Assembly (NCBI RefSeq): GCF_000949295.1
Contig: NZ_JXYS01000026.1
Span: forward strand, 1-64,000
DNA: 64,000 nucleotides
Reading direction: 5' to 3'
DNA from: Acidithrix ferrooxidans
GTDB taxonomy: Bacteria; Actinomycetota; Acidimicrobiia; Acidimicrobiales; Acidimicrobiaceae
Within the stretch, counting starts at the first letter, position 1, and every line of letters begins with the position of its first letter. Made by a program: the position numbers and the translations under genes. Shown in pieces: positions 20,816 to 29,886 of this stretch. Under the pieces are notes generated by a model. The model made no database searches. It was not told the DNA's origin and was given only the letters and a program-made list of their open reading frames with translations.

Positions 20816-20896
20816 TCATCCAGAGCGGTTGAGGGACGGGCCCGAAGAAACCGCGGCAACCAGTGTTAATACCAGGTGCCAATGCCCGACCGATGA
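20816..20896 (+). promoter_or_regulatory. SAM-clan riboswitch, compact P4-less form
   Basis: The SAM-I core is recognisable. P2a is GCGGTT (20825-20830)/AACCGC (20849-20854). P2b is GGG (20833-20835)/CCC (20841-20843) with loop ACGGG. P3 is GGCAACC (20855-20861)/GGTGCC (20875-20880). P1 is TCATC (20816-20820)/GATGA (20892-20896). Loop CGGG (20837-20840) can form the pseudoknot with CCCG (20885-20888). No room is left for the P4 hairpin of SAM-I, so it fits SAM-IV or the SAM-I/IV variant better. The Shine-Dalgarno GAGGAGG (20895-20901) shares two bases with P1, pointing to control of translation initiation. Confidence 0.85.
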
Positions 20897-20910
20897 GGAG
20901 GTAGACGTAC

Positions 20911-22158
20911 TTGTCATACGTAAAATCATTGACCTGTAAAGAGTGCGGTCAGAATTACGAGGCTAAGGCGTATCACGTATGTGAATTTTGCTTTGGACCT
21001 CTTGAGGTTAGTTACGACTACGATGCGATCTCTCGTTCTATATCTCGTGAATCAATTGCAAGCGGACCGCTTTCGATTTGGCGCTATCGTGATCTTCTTC
21101 CCGTAGAGGGGAGCGACTATGTCTCATTAGGGGCAGGATTTACACCGCTGGTTCGAGCTGAACGTCTGGGGAGGGCCCTTGGCCTAGATGACCTTTGGAT
21201 CAAGAATGACACCTTGAATCCGACTGGATCTTTCAAGGATCGTGTAGTTTCAGTTGCATTAACTAGAGCTCGAGAACTCGGATTAAAGGTCGCCGCCTGT
21301 GCGTCGACTGGAAATTTGGCTAACTCCGTAGCAGCGCACGCAGCCTGGGCGAATATGGACTCTTACGTCTTTGTGCCAGCCAATTTGGAGCGAGCTAAAA
21401 TTATTACTACCGCCATCTACGGCGGCAACTTAATTGCAATTGATGGAAACTATGACGATGTAAATCGACTCTGTGCAGAGATTGCATCTGAAGTTCCAGA
21501 TTGGGCTTTTGTCAATGTAAATGTTCGAACCTATTACTCTGAAGGCTCTAAAACTCTAGCCTTTGAAGTTGCAGAGCAGCTTGGCTGGCAAAGTCCTGAC
21601 CATGTTGTTGTTCCGGTTGCATCTGGAAGTCAGCTGACAAAGATCCACAAGGGGTTCAACGAGCTCTATCGCGTAGGCCTCTTGGATAAGGAACCTAAGG
21701 TCAGGATATCTGGAGCTCAGGCCGCCGGGTGTTCACCGGTGGCATCGGCATTTGATCAAGGCGTGGATGTTATTCGCCCAGTGAAACCAGATACAATCGC
21801 TAAATCGCTAGCGATTGGTAATCCAGCAGATGGCTACTATGCGTTAGATATTGTGCGAAAGACCGGCGGAGCCTTTGGATCGGTAAGCGATGATGAAATT
21901 TTAGATGGTATCCGGCTTCTAGCACGAACTGAGGGAATCTTCGCAGAGACCGCAGGTGGTGTAACTATCGCGACGTTAGCCAAGTTGGTCAAGGCGGGCG
22001 TTGTGCAAAAGGGGGAAAAGACCGTTGCTTACGTGACAGGCAATGGCCTAAAGACTGTAGAGGCGTTGGCCCCCACGACGGGTCCCACCATCACAGTTGG
22101 CCCCTCACTCGATGGGTTTTTTGATTTTTTAAATTCACAAAGAAGGAGCTCAAAATAA
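20911..22158 (+). CDS. thrC: Threonine synthase-like PLP enzyme
   Basis: A fold-type II PLP enzyme of 415 residues. It has an N-terminal zinc-ribbon pattern (CKECG...CEFCFG, about residues 9-30), the PLP lysine in NPTGSFKDRV (about residue 108), the ASTGNLANS phosphate-neighbour loop and a C-terminal VTGNGLKT block. By sequence it converts O-phosphohomoserine to threonine. The context is odd for that role: a SAM riboswitch controls it and a CysO-like sulfur carrier overlaps its stop by one base. A threonine biosynthetic gene is not expected to respond to SAM, so it may instead accept a carrier thiocarboxylate as nucleophile to make homocysteine. That is inference; plain threonine synthase remains possible. 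Confidence 0.85.
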   Translation: MSYVKSLTCKECGQNYEAKAYHVCEFCFGPLEVSYDYDAISRSISRESIASGPLSIWRYRDLLPVEGSDYVSLGAGFTPLVRAERLGRALGLDDLWIKNDTLNPTGSFKDRVVSVALTRARELGLKVAACASTGNLANSVAAHAAWANMDSYVFVPANLERAKIITTAIYGGNLIAIDGNYDDVNRLCAEIASEVPDWAFVNVNVRTYYSEGSKTLAFEVAEQLGWQSPDHVVVPVASGSQLTKIHKGFNELYRVGLLDKEPKVRISGAQAAGCSPVASAFDQGVDVIRPVKPDTIAKSLAIGNPADGYYALDIVRKTGGAFGSVSDDEILDGIRLLARTEGIFAETAGGVTIATLAKLVKAGVVQKGEKTVAYVTGNGLKTVEALAPTTGPTITVGPSLDGFFDFLNSQRRSSK

Positions 22159-22439
22159 TGGCTATTACGGTTCGTGTACCTACTCAACTTAGAAGTCTTA
22201 CTAACGGTGTGTCAGAGGTAACAGTAAATGGCGAAAATGTAGGTGAAGCACTAGCCGATCTAGGAGATCAATTTCCGGGATTGAGTGATCGTATCTTTGA
22301 TGATTCAGGTGCGATCCGGAGATTCGTCAATATCTTTTTGGCCGATGAAGATGTGCGATTTCTCGATGGCCCACAAACCAAGGTGAGCGATTCCCAAGTT
22401 ATCTCAATAGTGCCAGCGGTGGCTGGCGGTGCTTTTTGA
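22158..22439 (+). CDS. CysO/ThiS/MoaD-family sulfur-carrier protein
   Basis: A 93-residue ubiquitin-fold protein close in pattern to mycobacterial CysO: VTVNGENVGEALADL, then the RRFVNIFLADEDVRFLDG block and the C-terminal IVPAVAGGAF. Carriers of this family are adenylated and thiocarboxylated on a terminal Gly-Gly. Here Ala-Phe follows the di-glycine, so the protein as encoded cannot be activated until two residues are removed, as reported for QbsE and for HcyS-Ala, where a JAMM-type peptidase trims the tail. No such peptidase is seen in the window. The ATG overlaps the thrC stop by one base, so the two are co-translated under the riboswitch. Confidence 0.9.
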   Translation: MAITVRVPTQLRSLTNGVSEVTVNGENVGEALADLGDQFPGLSDRIFDDSGAIRRFVNIFLADEDVRFLDGPQTKVSDSQVISIVPAVAGGAF

Positions 22440-22845: not shown

Positions 22846-24465
<1,620 letters not shown>

Positions 24466-27997: not shown

Positions 27998-28708
27998 ATG
28001 TCTGAAGTGGTCTTTCCGCCCCTAAGTTCCCAAGATGAATCGTTTAGCCCCAAGGAGGGCTGGTCTGTTTTGCATCTTTTTTGTAAAGGCACTGCAAACT
28101 TGGATTTCGCGAGCGTCATGGTAGCTCATAAGTCGGCTGTTGCCGATGGATATCAGATTATCCCCTTTGGCCTTTTGGGGCATAAGGCGCAGATTGGTTT
28201 TCTAGCACTAGGGCCTAGTTTTGTTCGACTAAAGGAGTTTCAACGTGATTTAGAGCGCTCTGGATTGTCTGTGGTGGACTCCTATGTCTCTATGACCGAG
28301 GTCTCTGAGTATGCGAGCGGCATGCCAAAGGATCGCAAGGAGCCCAGACTTCATCCACTCCTACCTCCGAGTGGGATGTACAATATTTGCTTTTATGGTA
28401 TGTCGAAAAAGAGAGGCGAGAAGGATAACTGGTACTCCTTGTCATACGAGGAGCGCGAGCGAATGATGTTTGGTCATGGTGCATCTGGCAGAGCTTTTGC
28501 CGGTAGAGTCGTCCAGTTGGTTACTGGCTCCACGGGAGTGGATGACTATGAGTGGGGAGTGACCCTTTTTGGAGCTCGCCCCGACGATCTAAAGGAAGTT
28601 GTCTACACGATGCGCTTCGACGAAGCGTCTGCACTCTATGGCGAGTTTGGCCCATTTTACACCGGAGTGATCGGGGACATCGAGAGTGTCTTAGCCGCCT
28701 CTTTCTAG
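27998..28708 (+). CDS. hemQ: Coproheme decarboxylase (chlorite dismutase family)
   Basis: Final step of the coproporphyrin-dependent haem pathway: oxidative decarboxylation of coproheme to haem b. The 236-residue protein has the Cld-family fold pattern with the C-terminal haem region FYGMSKKRGEKDNWY, then YEERERMMFGHGASGR containing the conserved histidine of HemQ (about residue 165). It lacks the distal Arg context of true chlorite dismutases as far as I can judge. AAGGAG lies before the ATG. hemE and hemY are in the same window at 50728-53279, separated from it by some 22 kb. Flanked by terminators on both sides, so monocistronic. Confidence 0.88.
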   Translation: MSEVVFPPLSSQDESFSPKEGWSVLHLFCKGTANLDFASVMVAHKSAVADGYQIIPFGLLGHKAQIGFLALGPSFVRLKEFQRDLERSGLSVVDSYVSMTEVSEYASGMPKDRKEPRLHPLLPPSGMYNICFYGMSKKRGEKDNWYSLSYEERERMMFGHGASGRAFAGRVVQLVTGSTGVDDYEWGVTLFGARPDDLKEVVYTMRFDEASALYGEFGPFYTGVIGDIESVLAASF

Positions 28709-28790: not shown

Positions 28791-29600
28791 GTGGTTGATG
28801 AACTAGATAGTGCCCTTGATGTGCTAGAGGAGATTCTTCTAGCCATGGGGTCGGTTGTGGTCGGATTTTCGGGAGGAATTGATTCCACGTATCTTGGTGT
28901 CTTTGCGAATAAGGTGCTCGGCCCGGAGAACGTTCTCGTTGTAACTGCGGATTCACCCTCTTTGGCAAGAAGTGAGTTTGAAGAGGCTAAGTCACTAGCT
29001 CTGGAGCTAGGTCTATCTTTCGAGGCAGTCTTGACGAGGGAATTTGAGATGGCGGAATACCTAGTCAATGATGAATTGCGATGTTATTACTGCAAGTCAG
29101 CGCTAATGGATCGACTGGGTCCGATAGCTAAAAGTCGTGACGCAGTCGTTATTCTGGGCGTAAACGCTAGCGACGAGGGTGATTATCGGCCGGGCCAAAT
29201 TGGAGCAAGAGAGGCCGGAGCCAGGTTTCCACTACTGGAGGCACGGATGTCTAAAGAGATGATTCGTCAGCACGCTCTTGCCCTGGGAATTCCTATTCAT
29301 GATAAGCCAGCCTCTGCCTGTCTATCCTCTCGTGTACCATATGGTACTGCTATAACAATCGCAGTTCTTAGCCGGGTTGAGCGTGCTGAGCGGGAGCTTC
29401 GATTGCGGGGCTATCGTCAAGTAAGGGTCAGGGACTTTGACGAGACTGCGAGGATTGAGGTTGAAATAGAGATGATGCCACAGCTGATACAGGAGGCAGA
29501 TGAAGTCGTTCGGGCCCTAAAGAAGCTGGGTTATCTCTACGTTACCTTGAGCTTAGAGGGGTTTGTTTCGGGAAATCTTAACCGAGCTATCGGTCGATAA
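28791..29600 (+). CDS. larE: LarE-type ATP-dependent sulfur transferase
   Basis: A PP-loop protein of 269 residues: VVGFSGGIDSTYLGV (SGGxDS ATP motif at about residue 26), LRCYYCKSALMDRL (about 96) and KPASACLSSRVPYGTAI (about 168). In LarE of Lactobacillus plantarum the equivalent cysteine of the last motif is the sacrificial sulfur donor used to build the nickel-pincer cofactor. larB and larC are not in the window, and the next gene encodes a NIL-domain protein, so this homologue may serve another sulfur transfer. A GTG start is used; the hemQ terminator overlaps its upstream region. Confidence 0.87.
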   Translation: MVDELDSALDVLEEILLAMGSVVVGFSGGIDSTYLGVFANKVLGPENVLVVTADSPSLARSEFEEAKSLALELGLSFEAVLTREFEMAEYLVNDELRCYYCKSALMDRLGPIAKSRDAVVILGVNASDEGDYRPGQIGAREAGARFPLLEARMSKEMIRQHALALGIPIHDKPASACLSSRVPYGTAITIAVLSRVERAERELRLRGYRQVRVRDFDETARIEVEIEMMPQLIQEADEVVRALKKLGYLYVTLSLEGFVSGNLNRAIGR

Positions 29601-29646
29601 CAAATAAGGTGAGAGAAGCGACTCGTGACCGTTTAAGCTCTTGAAT

Positions 29647-29886
29647 ATGGCACATCAGCGCGTTAAATTGATCTACCCCCCTGGTCTGGTTACTCAGCCC
29701 GTATTGGCTCACTTGGCTTTGGATCACAGGGTCATGGCCGACATTAGAAGGGCCAACGTTGAAGACGGCACCGGTTGGTTGGTATGCGAGCTAGAAGGCG
29801 ATGCTATCGACCTTACCTCTGGATTGGCATGGCTGGTTGAGATTGGCGTTGAGGTGGAATCCTTGGGTGACGTAGTCGAATCCTGA
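29647..29886 (+). CDS. NIL-domain protein
   Basis: A 79-residue single-domain protein with the NIL pattern: RVKLIYPPGLVTQPVLAHL, then MADIRRANVEDGTGWLVCELEGD and a C-terminal LAWLVEIGVEVESLG. NIL domains occur on methionine transporters (MetN) and with proteins of homocysteine and sulfur metabolism, where they are thought to bind amino acids. ATG 29647 is used; a TTG two codons earlier is possible. It follows larE by 46 bp, which suggests a joint role in sulfur transfer. Confidence 0.82.
   Translation: MAHQRVKLIYPPGLVTQPVLAHLALDHRVMADIRRANVEDGTGWLVCELEGDAIDLTSGLAWLVEIGVEVESLGDVVES

Follow-up and report, generated by a model that had tools for sequence, protein, structure and literature searches.

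What does a bacterium do with a threonine synthase-like enzyme that is encoded next to a sulfur carrier and placed under the control of SAM? This question is raised by a locus of Acidithrix ferrooxidans, a member of the Acidimicrobiia, in the 64,000-nucleotide stretch of contig NZ_JXYS01000026.1 that we analysed (hereafter the window). The first-pass annotation, made from the DNA letters, had described a thrC-like enzyme coupled to a carrier ending in GGAF under SAM control, and we confirmed the open reading frames, their one-base overlap and the match to a riboswitch. The enzyme gene (20911–22158, + strand) starts with TTG and encodes 415 amino acids; NCBIfam models name the product threonine synthase and we predict it to be a MetM-type homocysteine synthase. 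The carrier gene (22158–22439, + strand) shares one base (22158) with the enzyme ORF and encodes a MetO-type sulfur carrier of the CysO/ThiS family with 93 amino acids and the C-terminus PAVAGGAF. Upstream of both is a SAM-I riboswitch aptamer, RF00162 (20813–20899, + strand), which cmscan found at 68 bits with a gathering threshold of 44.4 (E = 1e-13). Our answer, which we hold with high confidence, is that this operon is a MetM–MetO route that makes homocysteine from O-phosphohomoserine with carrier-delivered sulfur.

The leader gives some indication about how SAM might act. A Shine-Dalgarno-like GAGGAGG (20895–20901, + strand) spans the 3′ end of the aptamer and stands 9 bases 5′ of the start codon. 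Because of this overlap and spacing, SAM may occlude the ribosome site, and from the layout of the leader the mode of control is probably translational, with bound SAM hiding GAGGAGG. A plain energy fold of the leader RNA gave a z of –0.54 and lent no support to occlusion. A SAM riboswitch was present 5′ of the enzyme orthologue in 20 of the 20 class loci scanned (out of 30 class loci) and also upstream of the orthologue in Nonomuraea gerenzanensis. No SAM riboswitch was found in 12 enzyme loci of other phyla or in the 20-kb stretch around the metX and metY genes of A. ferrooxidans itself. The carrier gene adjoins the enzyme gene in 107 of 110 orthologous loci, a set that includes the window's own locus and the best 80 loci from named genomes, among which the count is 78 of 80. 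The loci where no carrier is next to the enzyme are L048, where the contig ends, L089 and L110. Since the riboswitch occurs in all 20 class loci scanned and the carrier in 107 of 110 loci, the arrangement is not due to chance.

A system of this kind has been described before. According to the portions of a 2025 paper on Microcystis that were available to us (PMC12172450), MetM of Streptomyces albulus turns O-phosphohomoserine into homocysteine (Hasebe et al., 2024), S. albulus metM has a SAM riboswitch, the same organism has a sulfur-carrier gene, metO, and homologues of MetM occur in cyanobacteria. The A. ferrooxidans operon likewise has its SAM riboswitch upstream. The first-pass annotation had proposed that phosphohomoserine and a carrier thiocarboxylate yield homocysteine by an uncharacterised pathway; the chemistry is probably right, given the published MetM, the clade and the pocket described below, but the pathway has been characterised as MetM–MetO (Hasebe et al., 2024, via the available portions of PMC12172450). 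The pair thus belongs to a described kind and the pathway itself is not new. Orthology to S. albulus MetM runs through the Microcystis enzyme, which those portions give as 51.6% identical to MetM and as adjoining a gene that resembles metO. The same portions report that in vitro the homologue from Microcystis converted O-phosphohomoserine to threonine and also acted as a threonine deaminase, that with sulfide it gave only an unidentified peak so that homocysteine formation was not established, and that in the view of the authors it is apparently not fully a MetM in the cell. These activities are a caution for assigning function by orthology.

They also bear on another explanation, in which the enzyme serves as a second threonine synthase (or threonine synthase/deaminase) beside a carrier gene that is only a passenger. 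The enzyme is a fold-type II PLP protein of the PALP family with a four-cysteine ribbon at the N-terminus, and it scores above the cut-offs of threonine synthase models (301 bits with TIGR00260 thrC, cut-off 167.1; 307.9 bits with PRK08197, cut-off 303), as this explanation would have it. Its best matches are threonine synthases and it did not classify as a CysM-type PLP enzyme. The predicted structure has a mean pLDDT of 91.8 and is also nearest to threonine synthases (2zsj_A, 38% identity), and the PLP lysine motif SFKDR is common to the enzyme and canonical ThrC. The two activities of the Microcystis homologue in vitro, as reported in the available part of PMC12172450, point the same way.

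By contrast, the finer comparison with canonical ThrC separates the two. Orthologues of the enzyme in the class share 59–75% identity with it and the next paralogues at most 41%, which is a sharp gap. A tree was built from 41 chosen rows (24 from the MetM group, 8 canonical ThrC and 9 others); in it a 100/100 branch split the MetM group from canonical ThrC when only these two were compared. Nonomuraea and the homologues from cyanobacteria fall inside the MetM group, separate from ThrC, and so does L197, at zero distance from L097. A single clade, in which the substrate pocket is rebuilt, unites orthologues from at least five phyla. At five positions that are invariant in 31 canonical ThrC rows (Thr88, Ser155, Asn157, Arg160 and Asn188), all 112 MetM-group rows, at least two of which are duplicates (own gene/L020 and L110/L200), carry invariant replacements. 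In Thermus thermophilus numbering, counted from the alignment, Thr88 is replaced by Leu, Ser155 by Asn, Asn157 by Arg and Arg160 by Tyr, and the fixed replacements extend to Gln164 and Asn188, both to Ser. The loop holding the Asn188 position changes from GNAG in canonical ThrC to mostly ASGS in the MetM group, and a one-residue insertion, relative to the 31 canonical rows, lies immediately before the Ser155 position. The row sequences come from local alignments and are incomplete at their ends. The residues of the replaced set in canonical ThrC, Ser155, Asn157 and Arg160 among them, presumably bind the substrate phosphate. The four ribbon cysteines at the N-terminus do not vary among 18 class sequences, and among 40 mostly named sequences they vary little or not at all. 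An apparent internal stop in the enzyme of Acidimicrobium ferrooxidans was ruled out, the flagged codon being the natural TAG end.

The pocket replacements in 112 of 112 rows thus argue against a second threonine synthase, as do control by SAM instead of threonine, the linkage to a carrier in 107 of the 110 loci (the best 80 named ones included) and the MetM activity reported in the portions of PMC12172450 available to us. So does the presence of a canonical ThrC (at least 58% identical to that of A. ferrooxidans) in 71 of the 77 enzyme-bearing genomes examined, which means that threonine is already covered; one of the positive genomes, G129, was counted on a 229-residue match, and the genomes lacking a canonical ThrC are G079, G092, G148, G149, G150 and G153. 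We therefore regard a second threonine synthase with a passenger carrier as improbable and a MetM-type function as the better account of the enzyme.

The carrier raises a different alternative. It matches the ThiS family at 44.8 bits (cut-off 22.5), and its closest solved relative is 3dwg_C of Mycobacterium tuberculosis (E = 7.8e-20), filed as a culture filtrate antigen, which we take to be CysO; the resemblance to mycobacterial CysO suggested at first reading was thus borne out. With CysO as the nearest solved structure, the carrier could serve the enzyme in turning O-phosphoserine or O-acetylserine into cysteine, in the manner of CysM–CysO, and clusters in Nitrospirota do include a cysteine synthase (L070; TIGR01139, 459.9 bits, cut-off 351). 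That enzyme is a CysK carried alongside MetM, though, which speaks against a cysteine-forming role for MetM, as does the A. ferrooxidans genome, where a CysK-type gene (52.7% identical to the CysK of L070) stands before one read as serine acetyltransferase. Control by SAM points to methionine, and the enzyme has the sequence and fold of a threonine synthase, not of CysM. A role in cysteine synthesis is consequently very hard to credit, and we keep to homocysteine as the predicted product.

The two residues after the di-glycine had been taken as the key feature of the carrier, requiring a JAMM peptidase. Across the loci this did not hold up: the C-terminus is exactly GG in 87 of 107 carriers and tails of 1–7 residues occur in 20 of 107. 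With so many carriers ending in GG, cleavage by a JAMM peptidase beforehand cannot be a general step, and the GGAF tail of the A. ferrooxidans carrier is incidental. As a separate observation, eight cyanobacterial loci (L077, L078, L082, L086, L098, L112, L114 and L118) have a second MoaD-like carrier gene near the enzyme, and that of L086 ends in PPVSGG.

We then considered what the rest of the A. ferrooxidans genome (4.02 Mb in 183 contigs, 98% complete) contains. The enzyme at 20911–22158 is not its sole threonine synthase-type gene, since the search for another thrC urged by the first-pass annotation turned up a canonical one about 52 kb downstream on the same contig (74738–75808), beside a gene read as hom. 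A JAMM protein, also sought on its advice, is encoded on contig C44, outside the metM–metO operon, with the motif HSH...SPTD. The annotation had further implied that no other methionine route is present, but adjacent MetX-type and MetY-type genes occur on contig C1. It had held that a complete conventional methionine route together with this gene as the sole thrC would speak against its proposal; the genome has the conventional route (MetX–MetY) but also the separate thrC. A second Cys/Met PLP gene has cystathionine gamma-lyase as its best NCBIfam model, below the cut-off, and the genome also has a MetH-type domain and two more ThiS-family carriers. The HcyBio/DUF39 family (PF01837) had no match in the genome, and tblastn with two MoeB-type proteins found none in the stretches of it that were examined. 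Because conventional enzymes for both threonine and homocysteine are present, metM–metO is an additional, SAM-controlled route in this organism and is redundant there. A third threonine synthase-like gene appears to be split over two contigs (L018:910–1830 on C29, and L019 on C147). The same transposase-like ORF lies near both halves, and what reads as an S-adenosylhomocysteine hydrolase gene lies close to the split gene.

To see where the route might not be redundant we examined its distribution. Orthologues of the enzyme occur in 41 of 119 class genomes (59–75% identity, one of them partial). The best 80 loci from a scan of named genomes are 59–82% identical and, by the phylum labels in the record titles, span Actinomycetota, Nitrospirota, Nitrospinota, Cyanobacteria, Chloroflexota, Omnitrophota and a MAG of Aquifex aeolicus. 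Among 30 of 100 plasmid records matching the enzyme, the best was an 11.85-Mb Nonomuraea record at 54.7% identity and the next reached 35.5%; nine plasmid records matched the carrier. Within the class, the enzyme was found in 14 of the 16 genomes that have neither MetX nor PF01053, compared with 27 of the 103 others (Fisher test, 4e-6), and when one reduced family of 26 genomes was left out the comparison was 14 of 16 with 27 of 77 (1.6e-4); the 14 genomes come from 12 genera and the statistics otherwise ignore relatedness. Absence of MetX alone was weakly linked to the enzyme (21/41 vs 24/78, p = 0.046). No match to TIGR01392, not even that of a control, reached the 500 bits of its curated cut-off, so MetX was called present or absent at E ≤ 1e-30. 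Two class genomes lack the enzyme as well as MetX and PF01053; a MetH-type domain is present in one of them, G040, and absent from the other, G080.

A similar examination of 44 named genomes with the enzyme, hand-chosen from the best 80 loci, counted 8 with MetX (one of them by a weak match), 16 with PF01053 and 14 with HcyBio, these 14 being cyanobacterial without exception. Altogether, 34 enzyme genomes had no match to MetX, PF01053 or HcyBio, namely 14 class genomes, which were selected for absence of PF01053, and 20 named ones, which were not, with several of the assemblies incomplete. MetA without a PF01053 enzyme is not known to lead to homocysteine. A MetH-type PF02574 domain is present in 30 of the 34, all but G103, G152, G153 and G154, and mostly belongs to a frame longer than 1000 residues, which is also the case in MetH; a canonical ThrC is present in 31 of the 34, all but G079, G150 and G153. 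Genomes G004 and G128 had matches at identical coordinates and are apparently one genome in both samples; they are outside the 34. We rejected a dependence of cyanobacteria on MetM–MetO: 14 of the 15 cyanobacterial genomes examined have HcyBio/DUF39, so the gene is not needed there for homocysteine. Co-occurrence with JAMM was also rejected as evidence for the route. A JAMM protein is found in 38 of 41 enzyme genomes of the class and in 48 of 78 others (p = 2e-4), and the signal is gone once the reduced family of 26 genomes is left out (38/41 vs 48/52, p = 1); the presence of JAMM alone is thus uninformative within the class.

These profiles meet a gap in the literature. In the part of it available to us, Price et al. 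(2018; PMC5764234) list Acidimicrobium ferrooxidans, Aquifex aeolicus and Pyrolobus fumarii as organisms for which no homocysteine pathway is known, and the available part of PMC3035218 describes Acidimicrobium ferrooxidans as an iron oxidiser with autotrophic growth. The genome of Acidimicrobium ferrooxidans, which belongs to the same family as the window, has the SAM riboswitch, the enzyme and the carrier, together with a canonical ThrC, a MetH-type domain and a JAMM protein. MetX and HcyBio had no match in it, and its single Cys/Met PLP gene is a weaker match (248.5 bits). The A. aeolicus MAG has the enzyme, a canonical ThrC and a JAMM protein; it gave no match to MetX, PF01053, HcyBio or PF02574, and up to the contig end no carrier adjoins the enzyme. 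These data suggest that MetM–MetO is the homocysteine answer for Acidimicrobium and perhaps for Aquifex; this would account for one of the three gap organisms and perhaps a second.

The genes around the operon in various phyla suggest candidates for the activating, processing and handling steps, judged here by family membership and position. In the window, a LarE-family ATP-dependent sulfur transferase (28791–29600, + strand; TIGR00268, 272.5 bits, cut-off 150) is followed by a stand-alone NIL-domain protein of 81 amino acids (29641–29886, + strand; PF09383, 47.8 bits, cut-off 24), both possible accessory genes. The LarE family turns a carboxylate into a thiocarboxylate, and a functional link of LarE to the metM–metO operon is possible. 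The same LarE-then-NIL pair occurs in Acidimicrobium ferrooxidans and in L057, L061 and L063, where it lies farther on from the enzyme. A NIL homologue is near the enzyme in 20 of the best 80 loci, with flank lengths that differ between loci; it is directly 3′ of the carrier in all 14 Nitrospirota and Nitrospinota loci among them (L064, L067–L071, L073, L074, L084, L104, L107, L113, L124 and L127), follows the carrier in L072 and L079 and stands between enzyme and carrier in L066. Seven of the 14 (L068, L070, L071, L073, L113, L124 and L127) have the complete order CysK, MoeB-type, MetM, carrier, NIL, MoeB-type, JAMM, and the other seven have parts of it; the families were named by HMM in L070 and in the other loci by clustering with L070. 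Upstream, L104, L107 and L124 carry genes read as sahH; L107 and L124 also have a gene read as metK there, identified in L107 by TIGR01034. Ten of the 44 named genomes, each of them one of the 13 from Nitrospirota and Nitrospinota, have a JAMM gene at most about 1.6 kb from MetM.

The neighbouring genes can be read jointly as parts of a larger machine, in which NIL would be a dedicated part, LarE would replace or supplement MoeB in Acidimicrobiia, and CysK and MetM of Nitrospirota would share one carrier together with MoeB and JAMM. We offer this as a speculative and rather doubtful extension. Under it, NIL may handle or sense the substrate or homocysteine, and it may be a domain that recurs in two unrelated homocysteine pathways, MetM–MetO and DUF39 with NIL/ferredoxin. 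Two other features of the surroundings were seen. A groEL gene lies downstream of metM–metO in the window (22846–24465), as it does in Acidimicrobium ferrooxidans, Nonomuraea and several named loci from actinobacteria, and the order in N. gerenzanensis (riboswitch, enzyme, carrier, small ORF, groEL) is much as in the window. An ORF of the window at 27998–28708 resembles a chlorite-dismutase-like haem protein (HemQ), named from its sequence.

What we observed for A. ferrooxidans, namely the gene identities, the operon, the riboswitch match, orthology, the altered pocket, a separate thrC, and a JAMM protein and a MetH-type domain in the genome, leads to the following scheme, in which we infer the substrate, the donor of the sulfur and the product, as well as the enzyme that activates the carrier, the trimming of the tail, the formation and release of an adduct, and the direction in which the riboswitch responds. 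The AF tail of MetO would be trimmed, and a MoeB/ThiF-type enzyme would adenylate and thiocarboxylate the C-terminal glycine. In S. albulus, metO is reportedly downstream of metM and thiocarboxylated MetO is said, in the abstract of the original report, to be the sulfur donor. MetM would remove the phosphate from O-phosphohomoserine and add the sulfur of the MetO thiocarboxylate at the gamma carbon. Homocysteine might then be freed directly, or a JAMM peptidase might release it from a carrier–homocysteine adduct, on the model of CysM–CysO–Mec, and MetH would convert the homocysteine to methionine. High SAM would close the riboswitch and turn metM–metO off.

Three points are added here: the assignment in Acidimicrobiia, the likely answer to the gap in Acidimicrobium and perhaps Aquifex, and the context of NIL, LarE, MoeB and JAMM. 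We did not meet these points in the partly available literature that we surveyed, which does not include the original report (Hasebe et al., 2024; AEM 90:e01247-24), and we make no claim that they are unpublished. The portions of PMC12452182, PMC7311316, PMC13257386 and PMC7857596 available to us hold nothing on the MetM–MetO route. The route may explain methionine synthesis in bacteria that have no other recognised one, such as Acidimicrobium. Because NCBIfam names the enzyme threonine synthase, gaps may be wrongly read into the methionine pathways of groups such as Nitrospirota and Acidimicrobiia.

Compared with known systems, the enzyme shares its fold and the SFKDR motif with canonical ThrC and differs from it in the one-residue insertion, the replaced pocket residues and the N-terminal four-cysteine ribbon. 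The Microcystis enzyme described as a moonlighting ThrC likewise has a neighbouring carrier gene, but it is without a SAM riboswitch and has a reported threonine deaminase activity. With CysM–CysO–Mec of M. tuberculosis the A. ferrooxidans system has in common a fold-type II PLP enzyme, a carrier of the same family and a JAMM protein in the genome. By contrast, its enzyme is of the threonine synthase type, its predicted product is homocysteine, and its JAMM gene is outside the operon, although in some Nitrospirota JAMM is inside the same cluster as MetM. The DUF39/HcyBio route differs in that its HcyBio protein has no counterpart among the matches in the A. ferrooxidans genome. In the HcyS–HcyD–HcyF–MetY system of Wolinella succinogenes a carrier thiocarboxylate is used for homocysteine, as proposed here. 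That system uses fold-type I MetY and an acylhomoserine, whereas the enzyme adjoining the A. ferrooxidans carrier is of fold-type II and would use phosphohomoserine, and the MetY-type gene is elsewhere, beside metX. MetM–MetO of S. albulus, the described kind to which the pair belongs, also combines a threonine synthase-like enzyme and a SAM riboswitch with a sulfur carrier of this kind; the A. ferrooxidans pair is set apart from it by a host in the Acidimicrobiia, the GGAF tail of its carrier, LarE and NIL nearby, and the additional presence of MetX and MetY.
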